A stretch of DNA of 31,271 bases from a virus, in the IMG/VR virus record IMGVR_UViG_3300046004_000751, positions 1 through 31,271 of that record. One strand, 5' to 3'. Under the pieces are notes generated by a model. That model was not told where the DNA came from. It was given only the letters and a program-made list of their open reading frames with translations, and did no database searches. Position 1 is the first letter of the stretch; the number at the start of each line of letters is the position of its first letter. The position numbers and the translations under genes are program-made. Of this stretch, positions 5,924 to 27,164 are shown in pieces.

Positions 5924-6175
5924 CGACTACCGAGGACGGTACATACCTGCCTCACAGCCGCTTGCCTAGTGGCGGTTATCACTAGGCATTTTGGAGCAAG
6001 ACAGCGAAACCAAGACGCGCAGACGCTAGTTATCGGAGATACGCTTTAGTGCGCCTCCACACGTTAACTAAATGCAGTTTGCATACGGCAGCGGCAGTAG
6101 TGTGGTCAGGCTTCTTTTTAGTTATTCGTTTGGTAGGAATGCCGAACGCGGATTGAAACTTTAAGGAAACTTATC
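5924..6175 (+). other. 252-bp intergenic leader of the capsid gene
   Basis: This is the longest gene-free gap in the window. It holds an 8-bp perfect hairpin (5964-5987), a small palindrome ATGCAGTTTGCAT near 6072, and the capsid ribosome site AAGGAA about 7 nt before ATG 6176. I see no convincing sigma-70 promoter. It may carry a phage-specific promoter or an RNA-processing site for high capsid expression. Confidence 0.55.
5964..5987 (+). other. Perfect 8-bp hairpin downstream of scaffold
   Basis: GCCTAGTG (5964-5971) pairs exactly with CACTAGGC (5980-5987) around an 8-nt loop. Only four T follow, after an A, so it is at best a weak terminator. It could instead be an RNA-processing or mRNA-stabilising hairpin. 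Confidence 0.55.
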
Positions 6176-7159
6176 ATGTCACAGACAAACTTCGGGGACA
6201 TCTCCCCACGTACCGCCGCCTATGCAGCTAAAAAATTGCTGAAACGCGGCCTTCCCTTCCTCGTTCTGGAGAAATTCGGACAAGCCGTTACTTTGCCTGC
6301 TTTCAATAGCAAGGTGATTAACTTTCGGCGCTTTACCGCGTTGCCAACTACCCCCACCACCTTAACCGAGGGCGTTACCCCCGGAGGTCAAGTGCTGTCT
6401 AAAACAGACATTACCGCGACACTGGCGCAATACGGCGACCGTGCCACCATTACCGATGTGATTCTTGATACCCATGAGGACCCCGTGCTGAACGAGGCCA
6501 TCGAATTGCTAGGCGAACAAGCCGCGCAGATGATCGAGAAAATGCGCTTCGGTGTTTTGAAAGCAGGCACCAGCGTCGGTTATGCCAATGGCGCAATGCG
6601 CAGCGATGTTAATTCGCCGCTGACACTGGCCGCGCAACAGCGTGCAGTTCGTAATTTGAAGCGCCAAAATGCGCGTCCGATTACCTCTATCGTTACTTCT
6701 TCTGCGAAGTACGATACCGCCGCTGTAGCCCCCGGCTTCGTTGGCTTGATTCACCCTGACTTAGAGGGCGATGTTCGCGCTATGACCGGCTTTACCCCCG
6801 CTGAAAAGTACGGAACCCTAACCCCTTGGGAAAATGAACTGGGCAAAGTGAACGATGTGCGCTACTTAACTAGCACCATCTTCGAGCCTTGGGTTGACGT
6901 GGGCGGTGTGGCTGGCTCTATGTTATCCACCAATGGTAGTAACGCCGATGTGTACCCCGTGCTGTATCTGGCGCGTGATGCCTTCGGTATCGTGGCGCTC
7001 AAAGGCCAGTACGCCATCACTCCGATGATTACCAACCCCAAGCCTAGCGATTCCGATCCTTTGGCTCAACGTGGTCACGCGGCGTGGAAAACTATGCAAA
7101 CTTGCGTTATTTTGCAGGATTTGTTCATGACACGTATTGAGGTTGCTGCAACCGCCTAA
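6176..7159 (+). CDS. Major capsid protein, N4-gp56 family
   Basis: This protein forms the icosahedral shell (HK97 fold). The 327-aa sequence matches the N4-gp56 family in length and in recognisable stretches: the N-terminal helix before KKLLKRGLPFLVLEKFGQ, the E-loop-like PTTLTEGVTPGGQVLSKTDI, ATLAQYGDRATITDVILDTHED, and the later FVGLIHPDLEGDVRAM and TPWENELGKVNDVRYL. A strong AAGGAA ribosome site precedes the ATG. It is isolated by a long leader upstream and three hairpins downstream, an arrangement that fits a highly expressed, separately controlled transcript. Confidence 0.95.
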   Translation: MSQTNFGDISPRTAAYAAKKLLKRGLPFLVLEKFGQAVTLPAFNSKVINFRRFTALPTTPTTLTEGVTPGGQVLSKTDITATLAQYGDRATITDVILDTHEDPVLNEAIELLGEQAAQMIEKMRFGVLKAGTSVGYANGAMRSDVNSPLTLAAQQRAVRNLKRQNARPITSIVTSSAKYDTAAVAPGFVGLIHPDLEGDVRAMTGFTPAEKYGTLTPWENELGKVNDVRYLTSTIFEPWVDVGGVAGSMLSTNGSNADVYPVLYLARDAFGIVALKGQYAITPMITNPKPSDSDPLAQRGHAAWKTMQTCVILQDLFMTRIEVAATA

Positions 7160-7611: not shown

Positions 7612-8253
7612 ATGTCTCCCGATGAATTTTACCCATACGTCAGGGTGGATGTACCGGATTGTCCTGACCCGTTAATCGTCGCAGCAGTGATTGCTACGTG
7701 CATCGAATTTTGCAGGGATACCTTGGCTTGGACGGAGTTTCAGGACTCCTTACCACTGGTCAATGGCGTGTCCGATTACGAGATAGATGCACCCGCGCAA
7801 TCACGGCTGATTCAGGTGATGGATGTGTGGATGGAAGGTACGCGATTGGTGCCGGTAACGATGAAGGACTTACCAAGGCTTATGCCTAACTGGTCGAGCG
7901 CTTCATCAAACCTGCCGGTGTACTTCACCTCTGCGGTGGAGCGTGGAATCATGCGCGTGTACCCCAAGCCGACGAGCGTGAACGGTAGCAAGTTGACGCT
8001 GCGTATTGCGCTTATCCCTATCAGCAAGGCGACTACCTTGCCCGATTTCTTGGGGCTGCACCACTCCGAAACCATTGCTAGCGGCGCGAAGGCAAGGCTT
8101 TTGATGATGCCGTCTGCTCCTTGGTTTAACCCCAATTTGGCCGAGCGCCACCGGCAACTTTTTGGCGATGGCGTGATTAGCGCCCGCATTTCAGAACTGC
8201 ACGACAGAACACCCAGCACGGTGAATGTGCAGTACCGCAAGTTTGGTTTTTAA
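7612..8253 (+). CDS. Head-tail adaptor-like protein 1
   Basis: This 213-aa protein is probably one ring of the neck that joins portal to tail. It begins with a helical segment (FYPYVRVDVPDCPDPLIV, then ATCIEFCRDTLAW) of the kind seen at the start of gp4/tail-tubular-A-like adaptors. A beta-rich middle follows with NGVSDYEIDAP, VMDVWMEGTRL and IMRVYPKPT, then helices around ETIASGAKARLLMMP. The order helix bundle, beta insertion, helix and its position two genes before the fibres support an adaptor. It appears to be a distant paralogue of the next gene. I cannot assign an exact family. Confidence 0.72.
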   Translation: MSPDEFYPYVRVDVPDCPDPLIVAAVIATCIEFCRDTLAWTEFQDSLPLVNGVSDYEIDAPAQSRLIQVMDVWMEGTRLVPVTMKDLPRLMPNWSSASSNLPVYFTSAVERGIMRVYPKPTSVNGSKLTLRIALIPISKATTLPDFLGLHHSETIASGAKARLLMMPSAPWFNPNLAERHRQLFGDGVISARISELHDRTPSTVNVQYRKFGF

Positions 8254-8269
8254 TTACTAGGAGATTGCT

Positions 8270-8965
8270 ATGACTATTACGGCTCAATCGGTTATTCGTC
8301 GCGTGGTGGATACGCTGCAAGATAAAACTTCGATCACTTGGCCTGTGGCTGAGTTGGTTCGCTATTTGAACGACGGCCAGCGCGAGATTGTGCTGTACCG
8401 CCCCGATTCGATGGTGACTAACGCCACCGTAGATTTAGACCCGCGCAACTCGAAGCAGGCGATACCCGCCAACGGCTCCAAGTTGATTGAGGTGATTCGC
8501 AATACCGACGGCACCAAGCGGGCGGTACGGCTGACGACCCGTAGTATTTTGGATTCGCAGTCTCCCGATTGGCACTCGCACCCCAATGCGACCAACGAGA
8601 TTCATCATTATATGTTTGATGCGCGTGACCCTAAGACGTTTTACGTCTACCCGCCAGCCGGTGATGCGTGCAGCGTAGAGTTGGTGTACTCCAGCCTGCC
8701 CGGCGATATAGCTGAGCCTGTAGAGGGTGCGCTCTATACCGCTGTCGCCGGCAATATTTCTGTGCCTGACATTTATGCCAATATTTTGCAGGACTACATT
8801 CTTTACCGTTCTTACACCAAGGACAGTGAGTATGCAGGGAACGGCGCACGCGCCCAAGCGCATTACGCTGCGTTTGCTGCGGCGCTGGGTATCGAGATTA
8901 AATCGACGATTGCAGTTTCCCCCACCACGGCGGCAGCTAGTAACGCCACCCAAGCCGCAAGCTAA
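8270..8965 (+). CDS. Head-tail adaptor protein 2 (DUF6682-like)
   Basis: The 231-aa protein opens with a helical repeat (AQSVIRRVVDTLQD, then WPVAELVRYLNDGQREIVLYRPD) typical of the phage adaptor family I know as DUF6682. It continues with NGSKLIEVIRNTDGTKRAVRL, PKTFYVYPPAGDACSVELVY and a C-terminal helix with ILQDYILYRSYTKDSEYAGN. Such proteins form a ring beneath the portal in short-tailed phages. The last 25 residues are Ala/Thr/Ser-rich and look flexible. AGGAG lies 7 nt before the ATG. The family call comes from remembered pattern rather than a search. Confidence 0.78.
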   Translation: MTITAQSVIRRVVDTLQDKTSITWPVAELVRYLNDGQREIVLYRPDSMVTNATVDLDPRNSKQAIPANGSKLIEVIRNTDGTKRAVRLTTRSILDSQSPDWHSHPNATNEIHHYMFDARDPKTFYVYPPAGDACSVELVYSSLPGDIAEPVEGALYTAVAGNISVPDIYANILQDYILYRSYTKDSEYAGNGARAQAHYAAFAAALGIEIKSTIAVSPTTAAASNATQAAS

Positions 8966-8977
8966 TAAGGGCTGGCC

Positions 8978-10009
8978 ATGACTATACGAACTTGCAATGT
9001 TTCTTTTAGAGTTACAAACAGCGAGGGCGACGGTGTAGCAGGCGCAACGGTTAGCGCAACGTTAAACCGGAGCGCCTTAGCCGATGGTGTGCTCATTGTT
9101 CCAAAGTTGACCGAGGGCGTTTCCGGTGCTGACGGGATTGTGGTGCTGGAGTTGTGGCCGAATTCGCTGGGTTCGGTCAAAACGAATTACCGCATAAAGA
9201 TTGATGTGCCGGGCGTGGGTGCTACCTACGCTAAAGCATACGTGCCCGATGTGAGTGCGATTGAGTTTTACGCGATTGGATCGGTGTACGGAACGCCTAC
9301 TGACGCTGGCAGCGCGGCATCTTTAATCGGCCCACAAGGCTTACAAGGGGTGGCGGGCGGCAAGGGTCTAAAAGGCGATGCGGGCATTCAAGGCATTCAA
9401 GGTATTCAAGGGCCGAAGGGCGACAGGGGTGGCGTCGGTCCACAAGGGCAGGTTGTTACCGTTTCTGGAACGGTAGTGACTGGGCCAAAGGGCGAGACAG
9501 GGATAAGAGGGCTTCAGGGCGAGCAAGGCATTCAAGGTCCGAAAGGGGATGCAGGCGCAGCAGGTGCAAATGGTGCAACCGGCGCGCAAGGACTCCAAGG
9601 CTTAAAAGGGGATGCAGGCGCAAGAGGCTATCAAGGTGAGCGCGGCGCTACCGGCCCTATTGGTTCGCAGGGACTTAGAGGCTACCAAGGTGAGCAAGGT
9701 ATGCAGGGTGCCAAAGGCGACCCCGGCTTAACCGGCGAAACCGGCTTAACCGGCTTTAAGGGTGATAGGGGTGACGATGGCCCACAAGGCCACCAAGGCG
9801 TAGAAGGTATGCGTGGAGCAACTGGCTCCATTGGCCTGCAAGGTGTCCAAGGCTTAACCGGCTTAACCGGAGCTACGGGCGCAAAGGGCGACATAGGCGT
9901 TCAGGGCTTGCCCGGCATTGATACCGAGCCGGCTCTGGCGGCTATGTACTCGAATCAAGGCACGATACTCACAAAAATTTCAGTAATGCTTAGGTCTATA
10001 TTAAGCTGA
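8978..10009 (+). CDS. Collagen-like tail fibre 1
   Basis: This 343-aa protein is probably a trimeric fibre. Residues 1-100 form a beta-sandwich-like domain (TCNVSFRVTNSEGDGVAGAT to LELWPNSLG) clearly homologous to the N-terminus of collagen-like fibre 2. From about residue 117 to 313 there are Gly-X-Y repeats, with GIQGIQGIQGPKGD and GLTGETGLTG types and one interruption around VVTVSGTVVT. The protein ends with a short helix (LAAMYSNQGTILTKIS) instead of a globular receptor-binding domain, so it may be a linker fibre or depend on the genes that follow. Collagen-like stalks are well known in phage fibres. Confidence 0.88.
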   Translation: MTIRTCNVSFRVTNSEGDGVAGATVSATLNRSALADGVLIVPKLTEGVSGADGIVVLELWPNSLGSVKTNYRIKIDVPGVGATYAKAYVPDVSAIEFYAIGSVYGTPTDAGSAASLIGPQGLQGVAGGKGLKGDAGIQGIQGIQGPKGDRGGVGPQGQVVTVSGTVVTGPKGETGIRGLQGEQGIQGPKGDAGAAGANGATGAQGLQGLKGDAGARGYQGERGATGPIGSQGLRGYQGEQGMQGAKGDPGLTGETGLTGFKGDRGDDGPQGHQGVEGMRGATGSIGLQGVQGLTGLTGATGAKGDIGVQGLPGIDTEPALAAMYSNQGTILTKISVMLRSILS

Positions 10010-13049: not shown

Positions 13050-13140
13050 AGCGTAAAAAAATAAATCAGAGCTTTTGCCTTCCCTTCTGGCGGTAATTAT
13101 TTGACCATTGGCGGTTGTTATCGCCCTAATGGAGTATGTA

Positions 13141-15309
13141 ATGCCGATTACTTGCGCTGTTTCATGTCAAGTCAATGACCAGAAGAATCTTCCCGTTAAA
13201 GGGGCGATGATTTCTGCGACCCTCAGTGCTGTAGATATATATCAGGGATATGTCGCGCCCGCTGATGTTGAGGTTGTTACAGATTCCGCAGGTCGGGCGG
13301 TGATGCACTTATGGCCTAACCAATTAGGTGCGGTGGCATCGTTTTACAAGATCAGGATTACTACCCCTTCTGGTAAGTCGGTTCGCACTACTGCGGTTGT
13401 GCCGAATGCGCCGACTGCACAACTTCACCTTATTTCTGAACTTCCCCCGTATGAGGGTAAAACAACGGGCTATGTGTTACTGGATACGGTAGCAACAGCG
13501 GCGGCAAAACTGGATGCCAGTATTACAGCCGCACAGGCTACCGTTATAGCTTTGACCTCTGCCGTTGATGCGGCGGGTATGCCACTTGACCCGCAATCCT
13601 TGGAACGTTTGTACGCAAACCTTCGTGGACCACAAGGCGATAAGGGCGCTACAGGTGCAAGAGGTGCAGCGGGTGAGCAAGGACCAAAAGGCGATACAGG
13701 CGCTAGTGGTAGTGGTAGTGGTGGTGGTGGTGGTAGTGGCACAGGCGCGCAAGGACTGCAAGGACTGCAAGGCATTAAAGGTGATAAAGGCGATACAGGT
13801 GTTCAAGGGCTGCAAGGCGATAAAGGCGACCAAGGCTTGCAAGGCTACCAAGGCGTTGAAGGGCAGGTAGGTCCACAGGGAGAGCGTGGATTTACAGGTT
13901 CGAGGGGGCTGCAAGGGGCTACAGGGCTTAACGGTTCCGCAGGGCTTCGCGGCGAACGTGGTTTATCTGGTGATGCAGGCGACACTGGCGAGCAAGGCAT
14001 TCAAGGGTTAACAGGATTGACGGGTGCAACCGGCGATACGGGTGCGCAGGGGCCAAGAGGATTACCGGGCGCTCAGGGCTTTACCGGCATTAAAGGTGAT
14101 GCAGGCGCAAGAGGTGCAACCGGCGAACAAGGCATACAAGGTGCTACGGGCGAAAAAGGTGATACCGGCACTATCGGTGATACCGGCATACGCGGCGTAA
14201 CAGGACTACAGGGTGCAACTGGTGGTGCTGGCGCTACTGGCGCGGCGGGGGCTAAGGGCGATTCTGGCGTTAAAGGTGATTCTGGCGCGACTGGAGCTAA
14301 GGGCGAAGTGGGCGCGACGGGCGCTGCTGGTGCGCAAGGGGTAAAGGGCGACACCGGAACCGCAGGCGCTGCTGGTGAAAAAGGCGATGCAGGCGCTACA
14401 GGAGCCAAAGGCGACACGGGCTTGCAGGGCGCTACGGGTGCTGCTGGGGCTAAGGGCGATCAGGGAATTCAGGGTGCTACGGGCGCTGCTGGTGCCAAAG
14501 GTGACGCTGGCGCTGCTGGTGCCGCTGGTGCTAAAGGTGATACCGGCGACAAGGGCGACACCGGCCAGCGAGGATTACAAGGCGAACCCGGAACAGGGGG
14601 CGGGGCGGTTGCACGTTTTAAACGTGTGGCATGGGCAAACCCAATGGGTAGCTCTACTACGTTGGCGCAAGCGGGGCTTATGCTTATTGCGACAGGAACC
14701 GCAGTCAGCACTACAGTTACGACGCTAAACGCCCATCAGATGATGCGGCGGCTTTACTACGCTGCGACAGTCGCCGCAGTTAACGCGGTAGCAGGTACGC
14801 GGGGTCTTTCGGGGCAATGGTTTCGTGGTGCGCAGGGCAGTAAATTTGGTGGGTTTAATTTCCTCTGCCGCTTCGGCCCATCCACGGGCGCGGCTGCGAA
14901 CGCTACCCGCCGTGGCTTTTGTGGCCTGCGCACGGCCAACCTGCCTTCAGACACTGACCCGTCCACCGTTCAGAACATTTTAGGCGTGGGCTGCGATGCA
15001 GCGGATACCACCTACCACATCATGCACAAGGATAACTTGGGCGCGGTCACGAAGGTGGATACCGGCATTAGCAAAAGTGCGGCAGATTTCACCGAAGTTT
15101 ATGAGCTGGAGATGAGCTGCATACCCGGTGGCGATGTGACATTCAAATTTACCAACCTCACTACCGACGAGGTGTTTACCCATACCGCATCTACCAATCT
15201 GCCAGCCGCCACGGCGCTGCTGAATCCGCAGTTGTGGTACTCGGTGGGCGGCACTTCTAGCGTTATTGGTGCGTCGCTGATGCACTTATCTATTGAAACT
15301 GATTATTGA
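13141..15309 (+). CDS. Collagen-like tail fibre 2 with globular C-terminal domain
   Basis: I chose ATG 13141 (722 aa). GGAG lies 6 nt upstream, and the protein then aligns from its first residue with fibre 1, whereas the upstream in-frame TTG and ATG would add unmatched residues. Residues 1-100 are the shared beta domain (ITCAVSCQVNDQKNLPVKGA, HLWPNQLGAVASFYKIRI). A helix (AAAKLDASITAAQATVIAL) leads into Gly-X-Y repeats from about 163 to 487, broken by a Ser/Gly hinge at 189-199. The last 235 residues form a globular domain (LYYAATVAAVNAVAGTRGL, GQWFRGAQGSKFGGFNFLCR) probably used for receptor binding or trimerisation. Confidence 0.9.
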   Translation: MPITCAVSCQVNDQKNLPVKGAMISATLSAVDIYQGYVAPADVEVVTDSAGRAVMHLWPNQLGAVASFYKIRITTPSGKSVRTTAVVPNAPTAQLHLISELPPYEGKTTGYVLLDTVATAAAKLDASITAAQATVIALTSAVDAAGMPLDPQSLERLYANLRGPQGDKGATGARGAAGEQGPKGDTGASGSGSGGGGGSGTGAQGLQGLQGIKGDKGDTGVQGLQGDKGDQGLQGYQGVEGQVGPQGERGFTGSRGLQGATGLNGSAGLRGERGLSGDAGDTGEQGIQGLTGLTGATGDTGAQGPRGLPGAQGFTGIKGDAGARGATGEQGIQGATGEKGDTGTIGDTGIRGVTGLQGATGGAGATGAAGAKGDSGVKGDSGATGAKGEVGATGAAGAQGVKGDTGTAGAAGEKGDAGATGAKGDTGLQGATGAAGAKGDQGIQGATGAAGAKGDAGAAGAAGAKGDTGDKGDTGQRGLQGEPGTGGGAVARFKRVAWANPMGSSTTLAQAGLMLIATGTAVSTTVTTLNAHQMMRRLYYAATVAAVNAVAGTRGLSGQWFRGAQGSKFGGFNFLCRFGPSTGAAANATRRGFCGLRTANLPSDTDPSTVQNILGVGCDAADTTYHIMHKDNLGAVTKVDTGISKSAADFTEVYELEMSCIPGGDVTFKFTNLTTDEVFTHTASTNLPAATALLNPQLWYSVGGTSSVIGASLMHLSIETDY
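13705..13739 (+). repeat. In-frame AGTGGT/GGT microsatellite in fibre 2
   Basis: Three AGTGGT units are followed by a run of GGT codons and another AGTGG unit. They encode a Ser/Gly hinge that breaks the Gly-X-Y register. Slippage would change hinge length in steps of one codon without a frameshift. Confidence 0.7.
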
Positions 15310-15310
15310 T

Positions 15311-15418
15311 ATGAAACAAGAACTTTACTACGCCAAAGCCGTGTTGTGTGGAATAGCCGCGCTTTGGATGATGCTTGGGGGCTTAGCCCTCGAAGTGTTT
15401 ATTCGGATTTTATTCTAG
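15311..15418 (+). CDS. 35-aa single-span membrane peptide
   Basis: The frame starts 1 nt after the fibre 2 stop and ends 9 bp before the next gene. It encodes a short polar, charged N-terminus (MKQELYYAK) and one hydrophobic span (AVLCGIAALWMMLGGLALEV) ending FIRILF. The ribosome site is poor, so coupling to the fibre gene is likely. Single-span peptides of this size at the head of a lysis cassette can be holins, pinholins or antiholins. This role is inferred from position and hydropathy only. Confidence 0.58.
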   Translation: MKQELYYAKAVLCGIAALWMMLGGLALEVFIRILF

Positions 15419-15427
15419 GGGTGCGCC

Positions 15428-15829
15428 ATGAGTGAATTTACTAAACCGCCAGAAGTCCAGTCAGACCCGTTTGACCGCAGGGATAGCCGCGTATCTACCC
15501 AGTGGGTGCGCGATGCTTTTGCTGACCAATCGGAGAAGATTGACACGTTAACAACCAAGGTGGATGCGCTGCATAGCACCGTGACCGAATCTGTGCCGAA
15601 CAGCGACTTTAAGGCACACCACGACACCCATGCAATGCTGGCTAGGCGTGAAGAAGCATCCAACGAGCGTAAAAAGTTTTGGCGCTCTTTCCGTGATGAC
15701 ATTATGAAAAAAGGCTTAACAGCAGCCGTTGTTTTTATTGCGGCATTGTTTGCGCTTGGTAGTCAGGCCAAGTTCAAAGAATGGGTAAACGATGCGGTGA
15801 GCACAGCCCCAGTGGAGACTAAAAAATGA
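15428..15829 (+). CDS. Coiled-coil protein with C-terminal membrane span
   Basis: This 133-aa protein has a polar N-terminus, a predicted coiled coil (FADQSEKIDTLTTKVDALHS) and a basic patch (ARREEASNERKKFWRSFRDD). A single membrane span lies at about residues 97-114 (LTAAVVFIAALFALGSQA), and the tail is short. The layout resembles small holin-associated or holin-like phage membrane proteins. No catalytic motif is seen. Its stop overlaps the next ATG by 4 bp (ATGA), the first of a chain of coupled junctions in this cassette. It could be a holin, an antiholin or an anchor. Confidence 0.72.
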   Translation: MSEFTKPPEVQSDPFDRRDSRVSTQWVRDAFADQSEKIDTLTTKVDALHSTVTESVPNSDFKAHHDTHAMLARREEASNERKKFWRSFRDDIMKKGLTAAVVFIAALFALGSQAKFKEWVNDAVSTAPVETKK

Positions 15830-16266
15830 ACCACGCAACCCTCATGATTCGCATAGGTGGCTGGCTTAGCTTCGCTTGTACGCTGGTGTTTGGCGCGGTG
15901 TTGTTCATCACGTTTGACAGCGACCCGCCATTCTCGCCTGCTGATGGCGTGACCACGATTAGCAACCAAAACGGCGCAAAGGTGCTGGTTGAGAGCCGAG
16001 GCTTTGCAGGTAAAGATACCAGCGAGATGACCATCTACCGGACGTTCTACCACAAGAGTGATGCCGTTCACCATGTGGTTGCCGTTGAAGGCGGTGTGGT
16101 GATTAACCAAAAAACCGACTACGTGGTGCTGCGCTCGTTTGTCCTGCCTGCCCACGTAACTGGCTCTTGGTGCAGTACCGCGACGATTTACTGGCGACCC
16201 ATGCTGTCGCTCAAGCAGCACAGCTTCGCGTTACCCGACCTTTGTTTCGAGGTGCCCCATGATTAA
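15826..16266 (+). CDS. Membrane-anchored protein with external domain
   Basis: The 146-aa protein has one N-terminal span (WLSFACTLVFGAVLFITF, residues 13-30). A beta-rich domain of about 115 residues should lie in the periplasm (NQNGAKVLVESRGFAGKDTS, HHVVAVEGGVVINQKTDYVV), with two Cys (CSTATIYW and DLCFEV) that could form a disulfide there. It overlaps the gene before by 4 bp and the solute-binding protein gene after by 8 bp. The topology, inner-membrane anchor plus periplasmic domain, would suit an unusual spanin or an inhibitor of periplasmic enzymes, but there is no sequence evidence for either. Confidence 0.72.
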   Translation: MNHATLMIRIGGWLSFACTLVFGAVLFITFDSDPPFSPADGVTTISNQNGAKVLVESRGFAGKDTSEMTIYRTFYHKSDAVHHVVAVEGGVVINQKTDYVVLRSFVLPAHVTGSWCSTATIYWRPMLSLKQHSFALPDLCFEVPHD

Positions 16267-17017
16267 GTACATCCTAGCTTTGGCTTTGGCTATGCCTGCT
16301 TACGGACAGACCGTGAAGATGGTCACGGAAGATTTCCCCCCGTTTCAAACGCTCAATAACGGCAATATGCAAGGGCCGATGTACAGCATCATGCGCTCGA
16401 TTTGCTTGGAAGCCAACTTGCAATGCAGGTTTGAAATGCTGCCTTGGAAAGACGCTTACCGCAAAGCAGTTTCAGGCGAAGCCGATGTGGTGTTTAGCAT
16501 CTTGCTTGAAGTACCAGAGCGTAGAGAGTTTTTCTACCTGTCTCCGTCTATCGTAAACACCAGCTACAGCTTCTTTGTGCCTAGCCGTAGCAAGTGGGTG
16601 TACTCCGGTTTGCAGAGTCTGGACGGGATGATCCTCGGTGCCTATGGCCCAAGCGGTACATCTATCGTTGCACAAGAGGTCGTGACAAGTCGTGCGGTAC
16701 AGGGCTTTGAGCCTACGACGCTGATTATCGAGCCGAGCATTGTCGATAGCTTTCAGCAACTGATTATCGGCAAGTACGGCGTTAACGGTGCGATTGTTGT
16801 AAACAAGGATGTTGGCATAGCACTACTCAAAAAGCATTCGATCTTCGGCCCGAAAGTGGCCGGTGACATCAAGCAGATTACTTATGGCTTTGGCGTGTCT
16901 AAGAAGGCAAGTCGTAGTGACCTCTACCCGCGTTTGGTTGACGCGCTACGGCGCTTGCAACTGCGCGGTGAAGTGCTGGACACCTTGCGCTTTTACGGGC
17001 TAAAGGCGGCACCGTGA
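16259..17017 (+). CDS. Periplasmic solute-binding protein (SBP_bac_3-like), phage-encoded
   Basis: This 252-aa protein matches family 3 solute-binding proteins of ABC transporters, which bind amino acids or related small polar molecules in the periplasm. A short signal peptide (MIKYILALALAMPAYGQ) precedes the typical opening MVTEDFPPFQTLNNGN. QGPMYSIMRSICLEANLQC, FEMLPWKDAYRKAVSGEADV and SILLEVPERREFFYLSPSI follow. The C-terminal lobe has AYGPSGTSIVAQEV, then ITYGFGVSKKAS and a closing helix (LYPRLVDALRRLQLRGEV). The length is normal for the family and no damage is visible. No permease or ATPase gene is present. It is locked by overlaps between the membrane-anchored gene (8 bp) and the 51-aa gene (4 bp), so it belongs to the lysis cassette. 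Ligand unknown. Confidence 0.85.
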   Translation: MIKYILALALAMPAYGQTVKMVTEDFPPFQTLNNGNMQGPMYSIMRSICLEANLQCRFEMLPWKDAYRKAVSGEADVVFSILLEVPERREFFYLSPSIVNTSYSFFVPSRSKWVYSGLQSLDGMILGAYGPSGTSIVAQEVVTSRAVQGFEPTTLIIEPSIVDSFQQLIIGKYGVNGAIVVNKDVGIALLKKHSIFGPKVAGDIKQITYGFGVSKKASRSDLYPRLVDALRRLQLRGEVLDTLRFYGLKAAP

Positions 17018-17169
17018 CTATCGACACCGTACCAATGCCCCTCACCGATGCCGAAATTGCCGGGTTACTGGCAGACATTGAAAAAGATGAACTGGGCGAA
17101 CCCACGCTAAGTGCGGAAGAACTCAAAGACTGGCTTTCAGGAACTAACGGACACAAGGGAACTTTATGA
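17014..17169 (+). CDS. 51-aa acidic protein coupled to the endolysin
   Basis: The start is a GTG that overlaps the preceding stop as GTGA, and its own stop overlaps the endolysin start as ATGA, so the frame fits exactly between two certain genes. The product is acidic and probably helical, with LTDAEIAGLLADIEKDELG and LSAEELKDWLSG. No membrane segment or known family is visible. The double 4-bp overlap is the main evidence that it is real. Confidence 0.7.
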   Translation: MTIDTVPMPLTDAEIAGLLADIEKDELGEPTLSAEELKDWLSGTNGHKGTL

Positions 17170-17651
17170 ACTACGACCAAGCGTATGACCTGCTAATTAA
17201 ACATGAGGGCGGCTTTAGCAACCATCCCGATGACAAGGGCGGTGCAACGATGTGGGGTGTGACTGAGCAGGTTGCCCGTCAGAACGGCTATACCGGCCCG
17301 ATGAAAGACCTTAGCCAACCGTTCGCAAAAATCATCTATCGCAAGCTGTACTGGGATGCGGTGAGTGCCGATCAACTGCCTGATGAAGTGCGCTACTCCG
17401 TGTTTGATGCCGCGGTGAATAGCGGCACTGGTCGCGCAATCAAGTGGCTACAACAGGCCGTTGGTGAGACACAGGACGGTGTGATTGGCTCTGTAACGCT
17501 ACGGGCGGTGCGTCAAGCCATCCCCAGCATTACCGCCGCAAGCATTAACGGCAATCGTTTGCTGTTTCTGACAAACCAACCTAACTGGCCTGCCTTCGGT
17601 AAAGGCTGGTCACGTCGCATTGCATCTAATTTAACTGGGAGTTTGGTATGA
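17166..17651 (+). CDS. Endolysin, GH108-type N-acetylmuramidase
   Basis: This enzyme cuts the glycan backbone of peptidoglycan. The 161-aa protein starts YDQAYDLLIKHEGGFSNHP, with Glu14 in the Glu-Gly-Gly motif as the expected catalytic acid. DDKGGATMWGVTEQVARQNG, IYRKLYWDAV, YSVFDAAVNSGTGRAIKWLQ and DGVIGSVTLRAV follow, the typical order of GH108 plus its peptidoglycan-binding C-terminal part. There is no signal peptide or N-terminal membrane anchor, so it should be released by a holin. It overlaps by 4 bp with genes on both sides. Confidence 0.93.
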   Translation: MNYDQAYDLLIKHEGGFSNHPDDKGGATMWGVTEQVARQNGYTGPMKDLSQPFAKIIYRKLYWDAVSADQLPDEVRYSVFDAAVNSGTGRAIKWLQQAVGETQDGVIGSVTLRAVRQAIPSITAASINGNRLLFLTNQPNWPAFGKGWSRRIASNLTGSLV

Positions 17652-18511
17652 CTTTTAAAGTCGGGATTGTTTTGTCGGGTGGTGGCGCTAAGGGCGCTTT
17701 TGAAGTGGGCGCATTGTCGGTGCTAATACCGTACTTGCGTGCCAATGATATGCAGCTTTGCGCTATTGCCGGTACGTCGATTGGTGCCTTCAATGGTGCC
17801 TTTGTTGCTGCGAACCAGTTTGCTGAGCTGAAAGAGATTTGGCACGGCTGGGACAACCACAACTGCGCATTAACCGAATCGGGCTTCCTTGGCCCGCTGT
17901 TCTCACTGGCGGTACGGGGCTATATGTACCGTACTCCGTACTCGTTCTTGAAAGAGAATTTAGACGTAGAGAAGATGATGGGTAGCCGCATTAAGTACAT
18001 CAATACCGCCGTGCGCTTAGGCGATGGTCAGATGTACATCGGTGGTAACACCAAACCAAAATCAGATGACCTCGCTCTGCGTGAGATTCTGGCTTCTATG
18101 GCTCCTGCACCTGTTACGCCTGCGGTAACTATCAACGGCGAAGAATATGTAGATGGTGGCTTTCGAGATACCGTGCCTACCCGCGCACTGGTGGACAACT
18201 GCGGAGAACGACTAGACCGTGTGTTTGTGATTTCCGTAAATCCCAAAGAGCGCATCTGGAATCCAGCGGTAACTATGGGCGGCACATCTTCGCTGCTTGA
18301 CCGCGTGCAATTTGCCTTTAACGACATCCTTTGGGACGAGGCGCTACGCAACGATCTGGAGTGGGGTCAGCAATATTTCCCCAAGGATGGCTCTTATGTC
18401 GTGGTCTATCCCGAAGTGGCTCACACCACCGGCGCTAACTTCTCCAAGGTACGGATCAGCGCTGCCTATGCCCACGGCGTTGAAGTGATGGCCGGAATGC
18501 TACGGGGCTGA
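17648..18511 (+). CDS. Patatin-like phospholipase
   Basis: This is a 287-aa Ser-Asp acyl hydrolase of the patatin family, which cleaves fatty acids from phospholipids. All key elements are present: oxyanion-hole loop GGGAKG (residues 11-16), nucleophile elbow GTSIG with Ser44, the SMAPAPVTPAV segment (150-160) and the Asp-Gly-Gly dyad with Asp169. It has no signal peptide, so it would act on the inner membrane from the cytoplasm, or reach the outer membrane after holin action. It overlaps the endolysin gene by 4 bp (ATGA) and is followed closely by the 56-aa gene and a holin-like gene. No cysteine-rich or spanin-like pair is seen, and an envelope-disrupting lysis role is a reasonable inference. 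Confidence 0.92.
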   Translation: MTFKVGIVLSGGGAKGAFEVGALSVLIPYLRANDMQLCAIAGTSIGAFNGAFVAANQFAELKEIWHGWDNHNCALTESGFLGPLFSLAVRGYMYRTPYSFLKENLDVEKMMGSRIKYINTAVRLGDGQMYIGGNTKPKSDDLALREILASMAPAPVTPAVTINGEEYVDGGFRDTVPTRALVDNCGERLDRVFVISVNPKERIWNPAVTMGGTSSLLDRVQFAFNDILWDEALRNDLEWGQQYFPKDGSYVVVYPEVAHTTGANFSKVRISAAYAHGVEVMAGMLRG

Positions 18512-18686: not shown

Positions 18687-19205
18687 ATGGATATGTCATT
18701 TTTAAAGAGCTTTGCGCCCTTAATCGGTACTGCACTCGCTGGTCCTCTTGGTGCTGCTGCTGCATCCTTTGTGGCTGACAAACTGAACATTGAGAACAAG
18801 ACGGTGGAGGCGGTATCGAGTGCGCTGTCTGCAAGCAAACTCAACCCTGAACAGATCGCTGGCATTCGTGCCGCTGAGATGGAGTTCCAGAAGTTTTGTG
18901 AGCAAAACAAGATTGACCTTGCACGACTGGAAGTGGACAACGTGAAGTCTGCACGCGATATGCAGATTGCCAACAAGAGCAAGACGCCTGAGATTCTGTC
19001 CTTCGTTATCACGATTGGCTTCTTCGGGATTCTGGCTTATATGCTGACGATGGAAGCCAAACCCGGTGATGCCTTGCTCATCATGCTTGGCTCGTTAGGC
19101 ACTGCTTGGGCTGCTGTCTGTAACTTCTGGTTTGGTTCAACTAACGGCTCTGCCCGTAAGACTGACCTGCTGGCTCAGGCGCAACCTATCAGTGAAGCCA
19201 AATAA
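18687..19205 (+). CDS. Holin-like membrane protein (3TM type)
   Basis: This 172-aa protein probably forms the timed membrane lesion that releases the endolysin. An N-terminal hydrophobic Ala/Gly-rich stretch (APLIGTALAGPLGAAAASFV) is followed by a charged helical middle (AEMEFQKFCEQNKIDLARL) and two membrane spans (ILSFVITIGFFGILAYML and ALLIMLGSLGTAWAAVCNFW). The chain then runs FGSTNGSARKTDLL. Order and length resemble the three-span holin family (Holin_3TMs type), including the Asn/Lys-rich loop before the spans. AGGAG lies 5 nt before the ATG. The call is by architecture and position beside the endolysin and lipase. Confidence 0.82.
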   Translation: MDMSFLKSFAPLIGTALAGPLGAAAASFVADKLNIENKTVEAVSSALSASKLNPEQIAGIRAAEMEFQKFCEQNKIDLARLEVDNVKSARDMQIANKSKTPEILSFVITIGFFGILAYMLTMEAKPGDALLIMLGSLGTAWAAVCNFWFGSTNGSARKTDLLAQAQPISEAK

Positions 19206-19207
19206 TC

Positions 19208-19729
19208 ATGTATAAAAACCAGCGATTTGTTGACACGTTGCCAGTCATATGTACAAAAAAGGCGATTATTTGTGCATATGGTTTGCTTCTGTCCCTTAGC
19301 TGCACAGCGGCTACGTTCCACGGCATTGTCACTAAGGTGCAAGACGGTGACACCCTGACGCTGACCTCGGGCAAGACGATTCACAAGGTTCGCCTTGAGA
19401 GTATTGATGCGCCGGAGTTAAAGCAGTTCTATGGCTATGCGTCACGCAACTCATTGTCGCAACTGACACTGAATAAGAAAGCCACTACTGTTTGTTCTAC
19501 CAAAGACATTTACAAGCGGGATGTATGCACCGTACTGGTGGACAAGATAGACATCAATGCGCTGCAAGTAGAGCGCGGCATGGCGTGGGCTTACCTGCGC
19601 TATGCACCTAAAGGAACGCCGCTAAAGGGCATACAGGACAAGGCGCGTGAATCGAAGCTAGGGTTGTGGTCTGAAGCTGAACCCGAGGCACCTTGGGACT
19701 TTAGACGCGCTGTGAAAGCGGCGGATTGA
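19208..19729 (+). CDS. Exported thermonuclease-like nuclease (SNase family)
   Basis: This is a 173-aa Ca-dependent nuclease of the staphylococcal nuclease family. A hydrophobic segment (AIICAYGLLLSLSCTAATF, residues 19-37) acts as signal peptide or anchor, and its basic N-terminus is unusually long. The active-site set is complete: Asp48 in DGDTLTL, Arg62, Asp67 and Glu70 in VRLESIDAPE, and Arg104 in KRD. The spacings Asp48-Arg62-Asp67-Glu70 equal those of Asp21-Arg35-Asp40-Glu43 in the classical enzyme, whereas the loop to the second Arg is shorter. The start is 2 bp after the holin-like stop. It would act in the periplasm or outside the cell, for example on host DNA released at lysis. Confidence 0.88.
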   Translation: MYKNQRFVDTLPVICTKKAIICAYGLLLSLSCTAATFHGIVTKVQDGDTLTLTSGKTIHKVRLESIDAPELKQFYGYASRNSLSQLTLNKKATTVCSTKDIYKRDVCTVLVDKIDINALQVERGMAWAYLRYAPKGTPLKGIQDKARESKLGLWSEAEPEAPWDFRRAVKAAD

Positions 19730-21247: not shown

Positions 21248-22905
21248 AACTTACGCTGTCTGGTTTTCAAGGCGCTAACCGTGCGCTGCACCCTAAACTA
21301 CTGCCTGATGGCGTAGGCGTGGCGTCGAATAACCAGAAGCCGGGCCGTGGCGATCTGCGTCCGTGGCGTAGCCCGCTAGAGGTGGCTACCGTACCAGCGG
21401 GAACAAAGTCGCTGTACCGCATGGGGCGGGATGTGGCTTCGGACGCTTTGTACTGGTTGAGTTGGCCTAAAGAGGTTCATGTGTCGCAGGGTTTTGAGGC
21501 CGGGGATTCTGTTGTGTACGGATCAGACGGAGCAGTAACCGGAACCGGCAAAACTGAACGCACTTACTACACGGGTGACGGAGCACCAAAGGTTACAGAT
21601 ACGACATTGGCGCTGGCCGCTGCACCCTACCCGATGGCGGCGCGGGATTTGGGTGTACCTAAGCCTCCTAGCGCAATCACCGCCTCCCTTGCAACTGTTT
21701 TTGCTAAAGCGGGTTCTGCGGAGGCAATGCAGGAAACCGTGTTTTATGTGTACACCTATGTGTCTGATTGGGGTTCGGAGGGGGCACCTAGCAATGTAAG
21801 TATTCAGGTGGATAAGCAGCGCGTAGATACGGTTAGCCTGACGGGCTTTTCTGCACCACCCTCCGGCAATTACGGCATTAACCGAATGCGCATCTATCGA
21901 ACAAAAGCCAGTGCTGGTGGGGCAGAGTTCTATCTTTTCCGCACGGTGGCTATTGGTACGCAACTGGTCGTTGATGCTGACGAGGAATTGGGGGAGGTGA
22001 TGCCCACGGCTACATGGGAGATGCCGCCAGCAGATTTAAAGGGGTTGATTTCGCTTTGGAATGGAATGCTCGCTGGCATCAGTGGTAATTCAGTACGCTT
22101 TTGTGAGGCGTATGTGCCCTACGCTTGGCCTCCTGAGTACGACGCTGTACCGCCCGACGGCACGCCCGTTGCCCTTGGTGTGTTCGGTCAGAGCGTGCTT
22201 GTTCTGACAACCGGCAGGCCACTTCTGTTAAGTGGGTCGTCGCCGGACTCGATGGATCAGCAGCCACTAGAAATCCCGCAAGGATGCATGGCGGCGCGTT
22301 CGGTAGTGAGCATGGGTAATGGCGTGGCGTGGTCTAGCAATGACGGGTTGTGCTGGTACGGCGCAGGCGGTGCGCGGATTCTAACGTCGGGCATTATGAC
22401 CCGCGAAGATTGGCAGGCGCTACGCCCCGCTAGCGTGATCGGCTGTATGTACGAGGGCTTGTACTTCGGCAGCTATGACGACGGCACCGGGCGCAAGGGT
22501 TTCATGATTGACCCCGGCAACGCGCAGGGCATTTACTTTCTTGACGTTGGCTTTGAGGCTATGCACTTCGATGAGTTGCAAGATCAGCTTTATGTGGTGG
22601 CAGATAACAAGTTGATGCGCTGGGATGCGGGGATTCCTATGCAAGCGACGTTTAAGAGCAAGGTGTTCCGCACGCCTCACCCCACTAATTTTTCCTGCGC
22701 GCAGGTGGTGGCAGACGGCTATCCGCTAACCGTTAAGGTGTACGCTGATGGCGTATTGCAGCATACCCAGACGGTAGAGAACCGCCAGCCGTTTCGACTG
22801 CCTTCTGGATTTAAAGCGGAGGACTGGCAGGTTTCAGTGGTGACTAACCACGCTGTGCAAGGTCTTGTGATTGCTAACAATATGTCTGAATTAGGTGCTG
22901 TATGA
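21244..22905 (+). CDS. Tail nozzle/stabilisation-like protein
   Basis: The 553-aa beta-rich protein fits the nozzle or stabilisation proteins that extend the short tail tube below the adaptor rings. The N-terminus (LTLSGFQGANRALHPKLLPD, GVASNNQKPGRGDLRPWRSP) describes a strand lining the neck. A propeller-like body follows with VFYVYTYVSDWGSEGAPS, NRMRIYRTKASAGGAEFYLF, FCEAYVPYAWPPEYDAVPPD, LGVFGQSVLVLTTGRPLLLS and AWSSNDGLCWYG. I know this series from nozzle proteins of N4-like and related podoviruses. It lies far from the adaptor genes (about 12 kb), an unusual order. ATGA overlaps link it to both neighbours. Confidence 0.8.
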   Translation: MKLTLSGFQGANRALHPKLLPDGVGVASNNQKPGRGDLRPWRSPLEVATVPAGTKSLYRMGRDVASDALYWLSWPKEVHVSQGFEAGDSVVYGSDGAVTGTGKTERTYYTGDGAPKVTDTTLALAAAPYPMAARDLGVPKPPSAITASLATVFAKAGSAEAMQETVFYVYTYVSDWGSEGAPSNVSIQVDKQRVDTVSLTGFSAPPSGNYGINRMRIYRTKASAGGAEFYLFRTVAIGTQLVVDADEELGEVMPTATWEMPPADLKGLISLWNGMLAGISGNSVRFCEAYVPYAWPPEYDAVPPDGTPVALGVFGQSVLVLTTGRPLLLSGSSPDSMDQQPLEIPQGCMAARSVVSMGNGVAWSSNDGLCWYGAGGARILTSGIMTREDWQALRPASVIGCMYEGLYFGSYDDGTGRKGFMIDPGNAQGIYFLDVGFEAMHFDELQDQLYVVADNKLMRWDAGIPMQATFKSKVFRTPHPTNFSCAQVVADGYPLTVKVYADGVLQHTQTVENRQPFRLPSGFKAEDWQVSVVTNHAVQGLVIANNMSELGAV

Positions 22906-25900
22906 CCGACGAACGTAATGATTTACCCAACCCTTCGGCGAATAACTACGATCAGCGCGTTCGTGAAACTTTGATGACCTACATGGGTCGGCAAGGCAAC
23001 CCGTTAGATCGCGGCCTGACGATGCGCGATATGCTGGACGCGGGGTTAATAGCTATCAATGATGGCGCGAAGCTAACTACAGGCATGAGTAGACTGCCTA
23101 TCAAGTCAGGGCCTAATATTACAGCCGACACCCTGCCAGATTTAACGCCGCCACCTACGCCGGAAGGGTTTGAAGTACACGCCGGCTTCACGCAGATAAT
23201 GATTGAGCATGATCCGGCAACATTCACTCAGGGGCATGGGCACTTGCGTACAGTCGTTTACGGCAAGGTGCGGGCGGTGGGCGAAGCGGCTCCGGTGTTT
23301 GCACACGCGGTGAAGGTCGCAGAGTTTGGCGGCTCTGTGTTCTCTATGCCTAGCGCACCCGCTACAACATGGCACTTGTGGATTAAGTGGGAAACCAATG
23401 ACGGCGTGCTATCCGCAGACCCTGCTGGTGGCACTAACGGGCAGGTGGCTATTACAGGGCAGGATGTTTCCAAATTGCTGGAGGCGATGACAGGAGAGAT
23501 TACAGAGTCGCAGTTGTACGGCGATTTGACTAGGCGCATTGATCTGGTGGACGGCCCAGCCACGATGGTGAACTCCGTTGCAGACAAAGTAAAGGCCGAG
23601 GCAGAGGCGAGAGGTTTGGCCATTGAGGCAGAGGCGAAAGCACGGACAGACGCGCTGATCGATCAGGCTCGAACGATAGGGGCTTCGATTACAACTGTGA
23701 GTGAATCGGTGCAGACGCTATCCGAATCATACGGAAAGCACGTCATATCAATAACAGCGGGCTTGGGTGATGCGGTAGCGGCAGCGACAACAGAGACAGG
23801 GGTACGTGTATCTGCGGAGGATGTGATTGCGAAAAGTGTAACTGCGATGGGTGGCAGGATGGGCACTGCTGAGGCGTGGATAAACACAGAAACATCGACT
23901 CGACTTGAAAAAGACAAAGCTACAGGCAGGATTCTCGACGCCATTGGCTTGACAGTGGATGACCCGATAACTGGGGTAGCGGCTACCAGCGCTAAACTTA
24001 TTCGGGATTACAGCACCACCATTGATGCCAAGCAGTTTGTGCATAACAGTATTGTAGATTTCAGCGGGGAGGTGTATGACCCCGTGACGGGTGCGGTAAA
24101 GAGTGCGCTTAACTCGGAAATAATTTCATCAAAGGTGGACGCTGAGTTGATGATGGGCACCAAGATCACCAACTTTGGCAATGAGATTAAAGACCCGGTG
24201 AAGGGGGTTATTGCTTCCGCTATTTCATCCGGGGTAATCTACAGCAAGATTGACGCTAAAGAAGCGGTGTCAACAGAAATCAAGACGACGCAATCCAAGT
24301 TCATGAACCCGGAAACAGGGTTGATTAACGACGCAGCGATACAGACCACGCTGTTTACTCGGACAGACGCTAAAGAGGCAATAGCGAATGAGATTAAGTC
24401 GTACAAAGCAACCGTTGGCGGCAAGACCTTTAGCGAGATAGAGATTCAAGCGAACACGGCTGCAAGTGATGCAGGTGCTCTGAAATCTCAGTACACGGTG
24501 AAGTTGAATACCGTGGGCACTAACGGGGTGCTGGCAATAGCGGGCTTCGGCTTGGCGAGCGAACCCACTGCGGCGGGGGGGATGACCTCGCAGTTCTTGG
24601 TGAATGCTGACAGGTTTGCGGTGGTTTCGGGTACTGACGGGGGAACATATGCGCCTTTTACTGTGCAAGGTGTGGACGAAGTTCTGCCCAATGGAACGGA
24701 ACTCAAGAAGGGCGTTTACATGGACGCTGCGTTTATTCGTAACGCAACGATCACCGGCGCGATGGTTGTTCAGGGAACCATCGAAGATATGCACGTTACT
24801 GAGCTGAACGCCACTAAGTTGACTGCTGGTGAAGGCATTATTGGGGACAGGCTTAAAAGCCAGAACAATAACGATGCCAATACGCAAGGGTGGCGCATTG
24901 AGCCTAATGGCAATGCCACGTTCAACGGTGTTGTTGTGCGCGGCACGGTATATGCGGATGCGGGTCGCATTGGTGGACTGACATTGACGGGGGGAGTGAT
25001 TCATTCAAGTGGAGTCACACCACCGCCGCTATTAGTTGAGCCAGACCTAACGCGAACCCGTCCGGTCAAGCAAGTGGTAGCCACTGGCTCTGGTACGCCA
25101 TCTACGATTTTAGTGCTGCAAGATGGGGAGGTAATGGGCTTTGGCTATTGGGAATCCGGTCTTTTTGGTGCGGCTTACACGGCTGCAAGCGGCTTAACAG
25201 CAGGCACGCCTATGCCGATTGCGCTGCTTAAAAATCCAAATGGTACGCCATTCATTACCAATGTAGCTGCGGCAGATGCTGGTGAGAATTTCTTGGCATT
25301 CTTAAAACACGATGGTACGGTTTGGTTTATTGGAGGGTCAATTGAGAGCGTGATGATTCCCAATTTAACGATGATTGCCGGGGTGAGTGATGTAGTTTCC
25401 ATCTCTGCTGCGCAAAATTTTCTAGTCATGCTAACCGCCAGCGGGCAAGTGTATGTGCGGGGGCAGCAACGCGATGCTCTTTGCCATAACATTGAGGTTG
25501 CTAACCAAAACTGGGACGCACCATTGAATCTGGTGGCGTATGGATTCCAAGGCTCACTCAGAGCGACTAGGGTTATGAAAATCACGGCTGGTGGCTACCA
25601 CTTCGCCATGCTGGATTCAAACGGCTACGTGTGGACTGCGGGGCAAAACTTTTGGGGCGAGATGGGTGTGGAGTTACCAACCGAAAAAGGCGTGCACCTT
25701 TTCCATATACACCGCACGCTTATAGATGGGACGCGAAAGCACAACTACACTATTTCGGATATTTGGGCGGGTGATCGTATAACCATGTTTGCTATTAAGG
25801 CAACTTACCCCCACCCAAGCGGCACAGATGTTGGGTTACTAGCGGGTGGGTTATATAGTGTTGGGTGTGAGATGCCTTTTAGAAACCCCAAGCCCGGTGT

Positions 25901-27164
25901 TTTCGGAGATGCGTGGGTAGTTCTACCCGTACCTTACGACCCGCACCTTTTAGACACTAGGCACTACCCAAAATTGGTTTGTAAAAGCGCCGATACCGGC
26001 ACAACCTATAGGGTGGTTATTGGTGGTGGCATAAACGGCGTGCCCGGAGACTATCGCAGAGCAATCATCAGGCAGCAAGGTGCCTATAACCACATCTTTT
26101 GCCTCGGCTTTGAAGGGTTTGAGCGAGATTTGCCGGTGATGCAAATGAAACCGGCAAAAAACTTTAGCGGTGTCACCCAGACTATACAGAATGACTTTCT
26201 GTATAAAGGGGTTCGCGTTAACACCCCAGCCGAAGCCGTCTCTGCGCGGAGATACGATAGTCCATCGGGGGATCGGAATGAGAGCACGGCCCGGCCTATG
26301 GGTGATGTTTTCTACATAAAGGATGACGGGGATTATTCGTTAGTTCACCCGACTGATTCTTTATATACTTGGGTTAAAGGCAAGATGGCTAACCCTTTTA
26401 TGGCGTTAGTACCCGGTGGTGAAAGTTATGCAAGAGAGTGGCTTACAGGCTCTAAGGAACTGCCATCAGACATTCGTTATGGCTACCCGAATATGCGGCT
26501 GGATACTGATTTTCCGAATACCTATCAGGACGGTTATAACCTGAGAGCAACTGAAGAATATGGTTCAGGCGTTGTATTGGATAGGCCTACTGCTACTGAA
26601 AAACGTCACGTAAACAAAGGTTTATATAGCGTGGATGAGGTGCATACACAAACAGGCATTCCAATTTACAACAATCACAGTTACGACTTAACCCCAGCAC
26701 TCGATACAGAACTCCGTTGGTGGAACACTTACATCGGGCCGCTAACGGTTTGCCATATTAACGAGGTTAATGCTGTTTACACGGTGGCAGACGCTACTGT
26801 TTTTGGTGCTTGGACGGGGCTTTATGCACAAGACTTTACTTCGCAGTACGCCGCGCAGTACATAAACAAGTGGCGGGAGCGTTTGCGCTCTTTACGCTCT
26901 GGGGCGGGTTTTACCACTTCAAGAGAAGACCCTTCCATCCCGTTTGGCGGCAGTGGGTTTGGCGTAAAGTCAAACGGAAATTTTATGTTTGGTAATTCCG
27001 CTGGGAATAACCTCACGTTTAATGGCTCGGCCTTATCTTACAGAGGCTCACTTGATGTTAAGAGTTCAACCGATACCAATAAATCGCGTATGGAAATCAC
27101 GGATGATTGCATCAAGGTGTATGAGGGTAGCCAATTGCGGGTAGTGATTGGGAGGCTACCATAA
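22902..27164 (+). CDS. Giant tail-tip protein with DUF1983-like region and RCC1-like domain
   Basis: This 1420-aa protein is a probable host-recognition tip. Order: an N-terminal segment (LTMRDMLDAGLI) and fibronectin-like domain (PPTPEGFEVHAGFTQIMIEH) to about residue 190; a helical region with three 38-residue repeats plus a partial one, each starting [IVT]DA[KE] (about 374-507); a J-protein/DUF1983-like section (FLVNADRFAVVSG, AFIRNATITGAMVVQGTIED, LNATKLTAGEGIIGDRLKS, GGLTLTGGVIHSSG) to about 705; an RCC1-like propeller (FLAFLKHDGTVWFIGG, KITAGGYHFAMLDSNGYVWT, AGQNFWGEMGVEL) from about 722 to 960; a large unassigned beta-rich part; and a typical fibre end (GSQLRVVIGRLP). It overlaps both neighbours. 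Confidence 0.88.
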   Translation: MTDERNDLPNPSANNYDQRVRETLMTYMGRQGNPLDRGLTMRDMLDAGLIAINDGAKLTTGMSRLPIKSGPNITADTLPDLTPPPTPEGFEVHAGFTQIMIEHDPATFTQGHGHLRTVVYGKVRAVGEAAPVFAHAVKVAEFGGSVFSMPSAPATTWHLWIKWETNDGVLSADPAGGTNGQVAITGQDVSKLLEAMTGEITESQLYGDLTRRIDLVDGPATMVNSVADKVKAEAEARGLAIEAEAKARTDALIDQARTIGASITTVSESVQTLSESYGKHVISITAGLGDAVAAATTETGVRVSAEDVIAKSVTAMGGRMGTAEAWINTETSTRLEKDKATGRILDAIGLTVDDPITGVAATSAKLIRDYSTTIDAKQFVHNSIVDFSGEVYDPVTGAVKSALNSEIISSKVDAELMMGTKITNFGNEIKDPVKGVIASAISSGVIYSKIDAKEAVSTEIKTTQSKFMNPETGLINDAAIQTTLFTRTDAKEAIANEIKSYKATVGGKTFSEIEIQANTAASDAGALKSQYTVKLNTVGTNGVLAIAGFGLASEPTAAGGMTSQFLVNADRFAVVSGTDGGTYAPFTVQGVDEVLPNGTELKKGVYMDAAFIRNATITGAMVVQGTIEDMHVTELNATKLTAGEGIIGDRLKSQNNNDANTQGWRIEPNGNATFNGVVVRGTVYADAGRIGGLTLTGGVIHSSGVTPPPLLVEPDLTRTRPVKQVVATGSGTPSTILVLQDGEVMGFGYWESGLFGAAYTAASGLTAGTPMPIALLKNPNGTPFITNVAAADAGENFLAFLKHDGTVWFIGGSIESVMIPNLTMIAGVSDVVSISAAQNFLVMLTASGQVYVRGQQRDALCHNIEVANQNWDAPLNLVAYGFQGSLRATRVMKITAGGYHFAMLDSNGYVWTAGQNFWGEMGVELPTEKGVHLFHIHRTLIDGTRKHNYTISDIWAGDRITMFAIKATYPHPSGTDVGLLAGGLYSVGCEMPFRNPKPGVFGDAWVVLPVPYDPHLLDTRHYPKLVCKSADTGTTYRVVIGGGINGVPGDYRRAIIRQQGAYNHIFCLGFEGFERDLPVMQMKPAKNFSGVTQTIQNDFLYKGVRVNTPAEAVSARRYDSPSGDRNESTARPMGDVFYIKDDGDYSLVHPTDSLYTWVKGKMANPFMALVPGGESYAREWLTGSKELPSDIRYGYPNMRLDTDFPNTYQDGYNLRATEEYGSGVVLDRPTATEKRHVNKGLYSVDEVHTQTGIPIYNNHSYDLTPALDTELRWWNTYIGPLTVCHINEVNAVYTVADATVFGAWTGLYAQDFTSQYAAQYINKWRERLRSLRSGAGFTTSREDPSIPFGGSGFGVKSNGNFMFGNSAGNNLTFNGSALSYRGSLDVKSSTDTNKSRMEITDDCIKVYEGSQLRVVIGRLP
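24021..24422 (+). repeat. Tandem 38-residue (114-bp) repeats in the tip protein
   Basis: Copies lie at 24021-24134, 24135-24248 and 24249-24362, with a partial fourth copy at 24363-24422. Each opens with [IVT]-D-A-[KE] and keeps a D/N-P-x-x-G turn at position 20-24. DNA identity is low, so these are old protein-level repeats. Confidence 0.75.

Follow-up and report, generated by a model that had tools for sequence, protein, structure and literature searches.

The 31,271-bp sequence analysed here (the window) is a virus record from IMG/VR that encodes terminase, portal, major capsid and tail proteins. Among its late genes lies one for a solute-binding protein (SBP; 16259..17017, + strand; 252 aa, ATG to TGA), whose product matched the family SBP_bac_3 (PF00497) over residues 22-238 with 45.8 bits (cut-off 26.4; E=6e-12). 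This was the only PF00497 match in the record, and no other domain was found in the 252 residues. A preliminary description, made from the letters of the sequence, had called the protein an intact member of SBP_bac_3 with a signal peptide, and we confirmed both points. The Sec-type signal peptide (approximately residues 1-16) begins with positive charge, followed by a hydrophobic core and an AxG/AxA site, and by eye a signal peptidase I site is plausible at MIKYILALALAMPAYG/QT; on inspection, the relatives described below keep this export-type N-terminus, with AxA-type motifs at the equivalent site. Here and below, signal peptides, topology and the absence of spanins were judged from inspection and hydropathy. 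No lipobox cysteine was seen by eye at the signal cleavage site of any SBP member, and an identity as lipoprotein or two-component spanin partner was rejected on this ground.

The PDB sequence matches of the SBP were mostly amino-acid-binding proteins. An AlphaFold2 model of the SBP (12 relatives) reached a pLDDT of 62.5 and a pTM of 0.66, with the second lobe below pLDDT 50. The top 50 Foldseek matches of this model in the PDB were all periplasmic-binding-protein folds, aligned over the full length with TM-scores of about 0.5 and an rmsd of about 11 Å, the second lobe being poorly predicted. The ligand site was read from an alignment with E. coli ArgT and HisJ, and invariance was scored in 12 sequences. 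Lobe-1 residues E24, F26, W63, S80 and R88 align with D11, Y14, F52, S69 and R77 of LAO, which we take to be ligand-contact residues, and are invariant, as is the C49/C56 pair, which aligns with the ArgT/HisJ cysteines. I81 and L83 stand at the positions of LAO S70 and S72, so the pocket is altered. Given the conserved lobe-1 residues, the ligand is likely amino-acid-like, with a differing selectivity. Overall, the protein resembles the family-3 amino-acid SBPs (ArgT/LAO, HisJ, ArtJ, GlnP domains, NocT; PF00497) in its profile match, in fold matches covering both lobes of the model, the second being poorly predicted, and in the aligned disulfide and lobe-1 residues, but differs from them by an identity of only about 13-20% (Foldseek), by I/L at S70/S72, by the lack of a permease and ATPase and by its obligatory membrane partner. 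An SBP_bac_3 domain is connected with murein hydrolysis in MltF, where it is fused to a lytic transglycosylase. An MltF-like identity was rejected because the 252-aa SBP contains no transglycosylase domain and no MltF entry was present among the PDB matches; unlike MltF, the phage protein has no catalytic domain, and the hydrolase is a separate, variable gene.

Two genes precede the SBP gene and form a conserved unit with it, which the preliminary description had not recognised. Protein A (15428..15829, + strand; 133 aa) is, by its open reading frame and hydropathy, mainly soluble and heptad-like with one C-terminal transmembrane segment (residues 92-115). Protein B (15826..16266, + strand; 146 aa) is predicted to consist of an N-terminal transmembrane helix and a periplasmic all-beta, beta-sandwich-like domain (AlphaFold2 pLDDT 78), which holds two invariant cysteines. 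In the window A overlaps B by 4 bp and B overlaps the SBP gene by 8 bp (ATGATTAA), so that the 8-bp coupling to an upstream membrane-anchored gene noted earlier was borne out, B being that gene. No Pfam family matched B significantly, and Foldseek returned generic beta-sandwich matches only (best E=0.0015, none below 0.001); judged by sequence, B is a new family. No Pfam or PHROG family matched A significantly either. An XhlA-type identity was considered for A and rejected, as the PHROG match was marginal ('hemolysin', E=0.007) and Pfam XhlA gave none, and an hhalign comparison of A with the short tail-anchored protein of one SBP-less relative was not significant.

Pattern-based scans of IMG/VR, which miss distant relatives, recovered the SBP at 64-81% identity in 12 other contigs (L-numbered below), all uncultured and many incomplete. 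All 12 relatives exceeded the PF00497 cut-off, and the last two scans, with the most divergent member as query, gave no further contig. The gene immediately before the SBP gene is B in 13/13 contigs (L003 holds only the tail of B), and the 8-bp overlap recurs in every contig except L019 (4 bp). Wherever the two ends were accessible, A comes before B and overlaps it by 4 bp, and its orthologue occupies the same place in all contigs that extend that far. A separate IMG/VR search for B, also pattern-based, gave 11 contigs; each carries the SBP, and none had B without it. The SBP was the most conserved of the three proteins in most comparisons, with dN/dS of approximately 0.04-0.14 in pairs with usable dS, many wider pairs being saturated. 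Because 12 other contigs keep the gene at this identity under purifying selection, it is not a product of chance, and a chance open reading frame or a decaying gene was ruled out. Host contamination was likewise ruled out, as phage late genes surround the gene and other virus contigs also carry it. Bacteria have many SBP genes, and one could have been acquired from a host by accident and carried without a role; nothing specific speaks for this, and strong purifying selection in 13 contigs with the same partner and overlaps contradicts it, making it extremely improbable. The earlier argument that the coupling speaks against a recent random insertion was thereby strengthened.

The trees of the three genes conflicted with each other. 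A of the window grouped with L005-L007, L016 and L017 (support 97/98), B with L018 and L029 (86/95), and the SBP with L001 and L002 (95/94). AU tests on A rejected the grouping seen for the SBP (p=0.007) and that for B (6e-5), those on the SBP rejected the groupings of A (1.5e-4) and B (0.002), and those on B rejected the swapped groupings more weakly (0.005-0.045), with short alignments and with groups picked after the identities had been viewed. The conflict indicates that the trio recombines yet stays together, and is good, though not final, evidence for separate recombination of the A, B and SBP genes. In the flanks first examined, no gene common to L002-L007 and the window was detectable at 1e-4 beyond the unit. 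The unit moves between different surroundings but remains intact.

Downstream, the SBP gene overlaps by 4 bp (GTGA) a 51-aa open reading frame with a GTG start (17014..17169, + strand), which in turn overlaps by 4 bp the endolysin gene (17166..17651, + strand; GH108, the N4 gp61-type N-acetylmuramidase family; PF05838 E=5e-27, phrog_315 endolysin E=2e-48). The placement of the SBP between a membrane-anchored gene and the endolysin and the 4-bp overlap at its 3' end thus held, but not the direct adjacency to the endolysin, as the 51-aa frame intervenes and is the overlapping partner. In L001 and L018 the corresponding DNA is joined in frame to the endolysin gene and extends the N-terminus of its product. 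A patatin-like phospholipase (17648..18511, + strand; PF01734 E=5e-20) and a 172-aa holin-like protein (18687..19205, + strand; phrog_1544 E=2e-18; hydrophobic segments near the C-terminus by hydropathy) follow, and a relative of the latter (46%) carries a holin annotation in MW202701. When related contigs were surveyed for the SBP gene in the same position, membrane protein B was constant on its upstream side and the type of endolysin varied on the other: GH108 in the window, L001, L018 and L029, and M15 in L002, L003, L005-L007, L016 and L017; in L019, which has a different arrangement, no endolysin was recognised directly downstream. The holins of the GH108 and M15 backgrounds had no detectable relationship. 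An endolysin and a holin neighbour the unit in both.

The SBP-less phages used for comparison were linked to these contigs by a related M15 endolysin (about 60% identity) or by a holin distantly related to that of the window. Upstream of the holin, several of them encode tail-anchored proteins, one short and another of 150-175 aa, so B-SBP seems to occupy a place that elsewhere belongs to another lysis-region membrane protein. An alternative explanation is that B and the SBP act mechanically in place of spanins or of another lysis membrane protein, helping to disrupt the outer membrane or its peptidoglycan contact. Inspection revealed no spanin pair, B-SBP occupies the place of the 150-175-aa protein, and the membrane and periplasmic genes overlap as a pair; the SBP, however, has no lipobox, the B model has no coiled-coil periplasmic domain and the conserved ligand-site residues would be left unexplained, and we regard a mechanical part as improbable.

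Lipase-type genes recur in the lysis regions of SBP contigs, namely patatin in the window (17648-18511) and L001 and an alpha/beta hydrolase in L001 (L001 coordinates 8108-8977 and 5756-6694), together with a 267-aa putative serine esterase family (L018:4224-5027; L019:7763-8566; a similar L029 frame ends near 7025). These genes may help to disrupt membranes. An SNase-family nuclease with a hydrophobic, export-like N-terminus adjoins the holin (window 19208-19729; L001:8974-9471; L018:8656-9129) and could act on periplasmic DNA.

The earlier observation that no permease or ATPase gene is near was confirmed and extended to the relatives. The window and its 12 relatives (13 records, perhaps incomplete) gave no match to the permease family PF00528 and none over the cut-off to the ABC ATPase family PF00005, both of which were detected in 14/14 control genomes. 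A single pattern scan of bacterial genomes found a best cellular relative of the SBP that is approximately 30% identical. These results bear on nutrient scavenging, in which, at a late stage of infection, the SBP would pass an amino acid or a comparable solute to an ABC permease of the host, in the manner of an auxiliary metabolic gene like cyanophage PstS. The SBP family is transporter-type, its lobe-1 ligand residues are conserved, and phage PstS, which has been connected with a normal lysis time when phosphate is limiting, provides a precedent (PMC10976474). Like the protein described here, cyanophage PstS is a known phage-encoded SBP without its own permease; it is, however, of another SBP family, and it clusters with the genes of hosts and shows no constant gene order (PMC10976474), whereas the synteny of our SBP is rigid and a close cellular homologue was not found. 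Scavenging would also leave the obligatory B unexplained. Because of the missing permease, the rigid synteny and the lack of a close cellular homologue among those found, nutrient capture, one of the roles in the preliminary description, is less favoured and in our view unlikely, and the recruitment for lysis or envelope signalling listed beside it is favoured; the third role listed there, blocking of a host receptor, is a conceivable alternative.

That the SBP is always locked to the same membrane partner beside lysis genes suggests sensing of a small molecule in the envelope rather than feeding. We propose, with a probability of roughly 0.4, that it is a periplasmic receptor for a small molecule that acts through B and A on lysis, with a ligand, contacts and effect that we infer. 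The exported SBP would bind an amino-acid-like small molecule between the lobes and dock, in a ligand-dependent way, on the periplasmic beta-sandwich of B, which the inner membrane would hold beside tail-anchored A; the unit would then signal its ligand state to the holin/endolysin system, thereby setting or vetoing the timing of lysis. More tentatively, the system may amount to a ligand-gated lysis checkpoint, in which a repurposed amino-acid-type binding protein serves as a periplasmic chemical sensor and, via a dedicated membrane-protein pair, decides when the cell lyses.

The receptor is favoured because B is translationally coupled directly upstream in all 13 contigs and a search for B finds only SBP contigs, because the A-B-SBP linkage survives recombination, and because the SBP is under purifying selection with invariant lobe-1 residues and C49/C56. 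Further reasons are the endolysin and holin neighbours in both backgrounds together with the missing permease, and the tail-anchored proteins that fill the slot upstream of the holin in SBP-less relatives. By analogy, two precedents also argue for it. In T4, RI loses its signal peptide to become a soluble antiholin of the periplasm; there it binds the periplasmic domain of holin T, which has one transmembrane segment, and DNA in that compartment is the signal it is believed to sense (PMC8385771, PMC12642591). Bacterial sensor kinases and chemoreceptors are stimulated by ligand-loaded SBPs (PMC9864684). Similar to RI/T, the locus is predicted to pair, among lysis genes, a soluble periplasmic protein with a cleavable signal and an inner-membrane protein with one transmembrane segment and a periplasmic domain; the difference is that an SBP fold replaces RI, that a separate holin is present and that a superinfection or DNA signal is not implied. 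Neither B nor the SBP had a Pfam or PHROG antiholin or holin match that would point to homology with T or RI, and our best reading is that the unit would work like RI/T by analogy, without homology. The altered pocket (I81/L83) and the poorly predicted second lobe count against a receptor. The occurrence of the unit with two unrelated holins speaks against one fixed holin-antiholin interface and weighs most heavily against a direct antiholin. The lysis-region location could also be incidental.

The same tolerance of two unrelated holins leaves room for exclusion or another self-contained envelope role. In superinfection exclusion, an inner-membrane and periplasmic A-B-SBP complex would shield the envelope and hinder the entry of competing phages. 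Such a role would suit a self-contained membrane and periplasmic unit that moves between unrelated cassettes with an export-like nuclease nearby (19208-19729), but a match to a defence family was not found and a position in the lysis region is late for exclusion. We know of no SBP fold in an exclusion system, and consider this role unlikely.

A, B and the window SBP had no match among INPHARED phage records, and the matches of the most divergent SBP member there were weak; a HisJ probe matched 72 INPHARED records, many of them tiny, unannotated or very large and resembling host DNA. The SBP-like viral structures in BFVD came mainly from giant viruses and from Bug-type proteins of uncultured Caudovirales, which share a binding-protein-like fold in a virus but are 10-14% identical and bear other names and families (Bug/TTT, transporter). 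In the open-access literature we found no report of an SBP or binding protein in a phage lysis cassette. Phages sense signal peptides (arbitrium) and, in T4, superinfection; we know of none whose lysis machinery responds to a small metabolite by way of a binding protein. If the receptor reading is true, envelope sensing of a small molecule by a dedicated receptor in the lysis region would be new, and should the protein scavenge after all, it would remain a transporter-type protein of a kind rarely seen in phages, and the first we could find that is tied to lysis genes. Being compact, conserved and associated with differing holins and endolysins, the unit lends itself to cloning and testing as one piece in a laboratory strain, and two of its three proteins (A and B) have no significant Pfam or PHROGs match.

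Several further features were recorded in these contigs. A single-transmembrane micro-ORF of 35-50 aa lies directly upstream of A and is kept in the four GH108-type contigs (window 15312-15419, with a longer start at 15293; L001:4006-4131; L018:4979-5131; L029:7018-7125). In M15-type contigs this place is taken by a 135-aa protein with GDCEDF and NHC motifs (L005:3760-4173; L002:3725-4132; L016:4772-5182), which by eye resembles a transglutaminase or papain-like cysteine protease and had no Pfam match. The window also encodes two collagen-repeat, tail-fibre-like proteins (13108-15309 and 8978-10009), the larger of which has a terminal domain kept in L001, and a 1420-aa tail J-like protein (22902-27164), residues 722-857 of which weakly match RCC1-type phage families. 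Finally, L029 and L137 lie at the end and the start, respectively, of the 47-kb contig IMGVR_UViG_3300035703_000148, whose ends overlap at 94-97% identity, with about 268 additional bases between the SBP and endolysin genes in one copy, suggesting a circularly permuted or strain-mixed near-complete genome.
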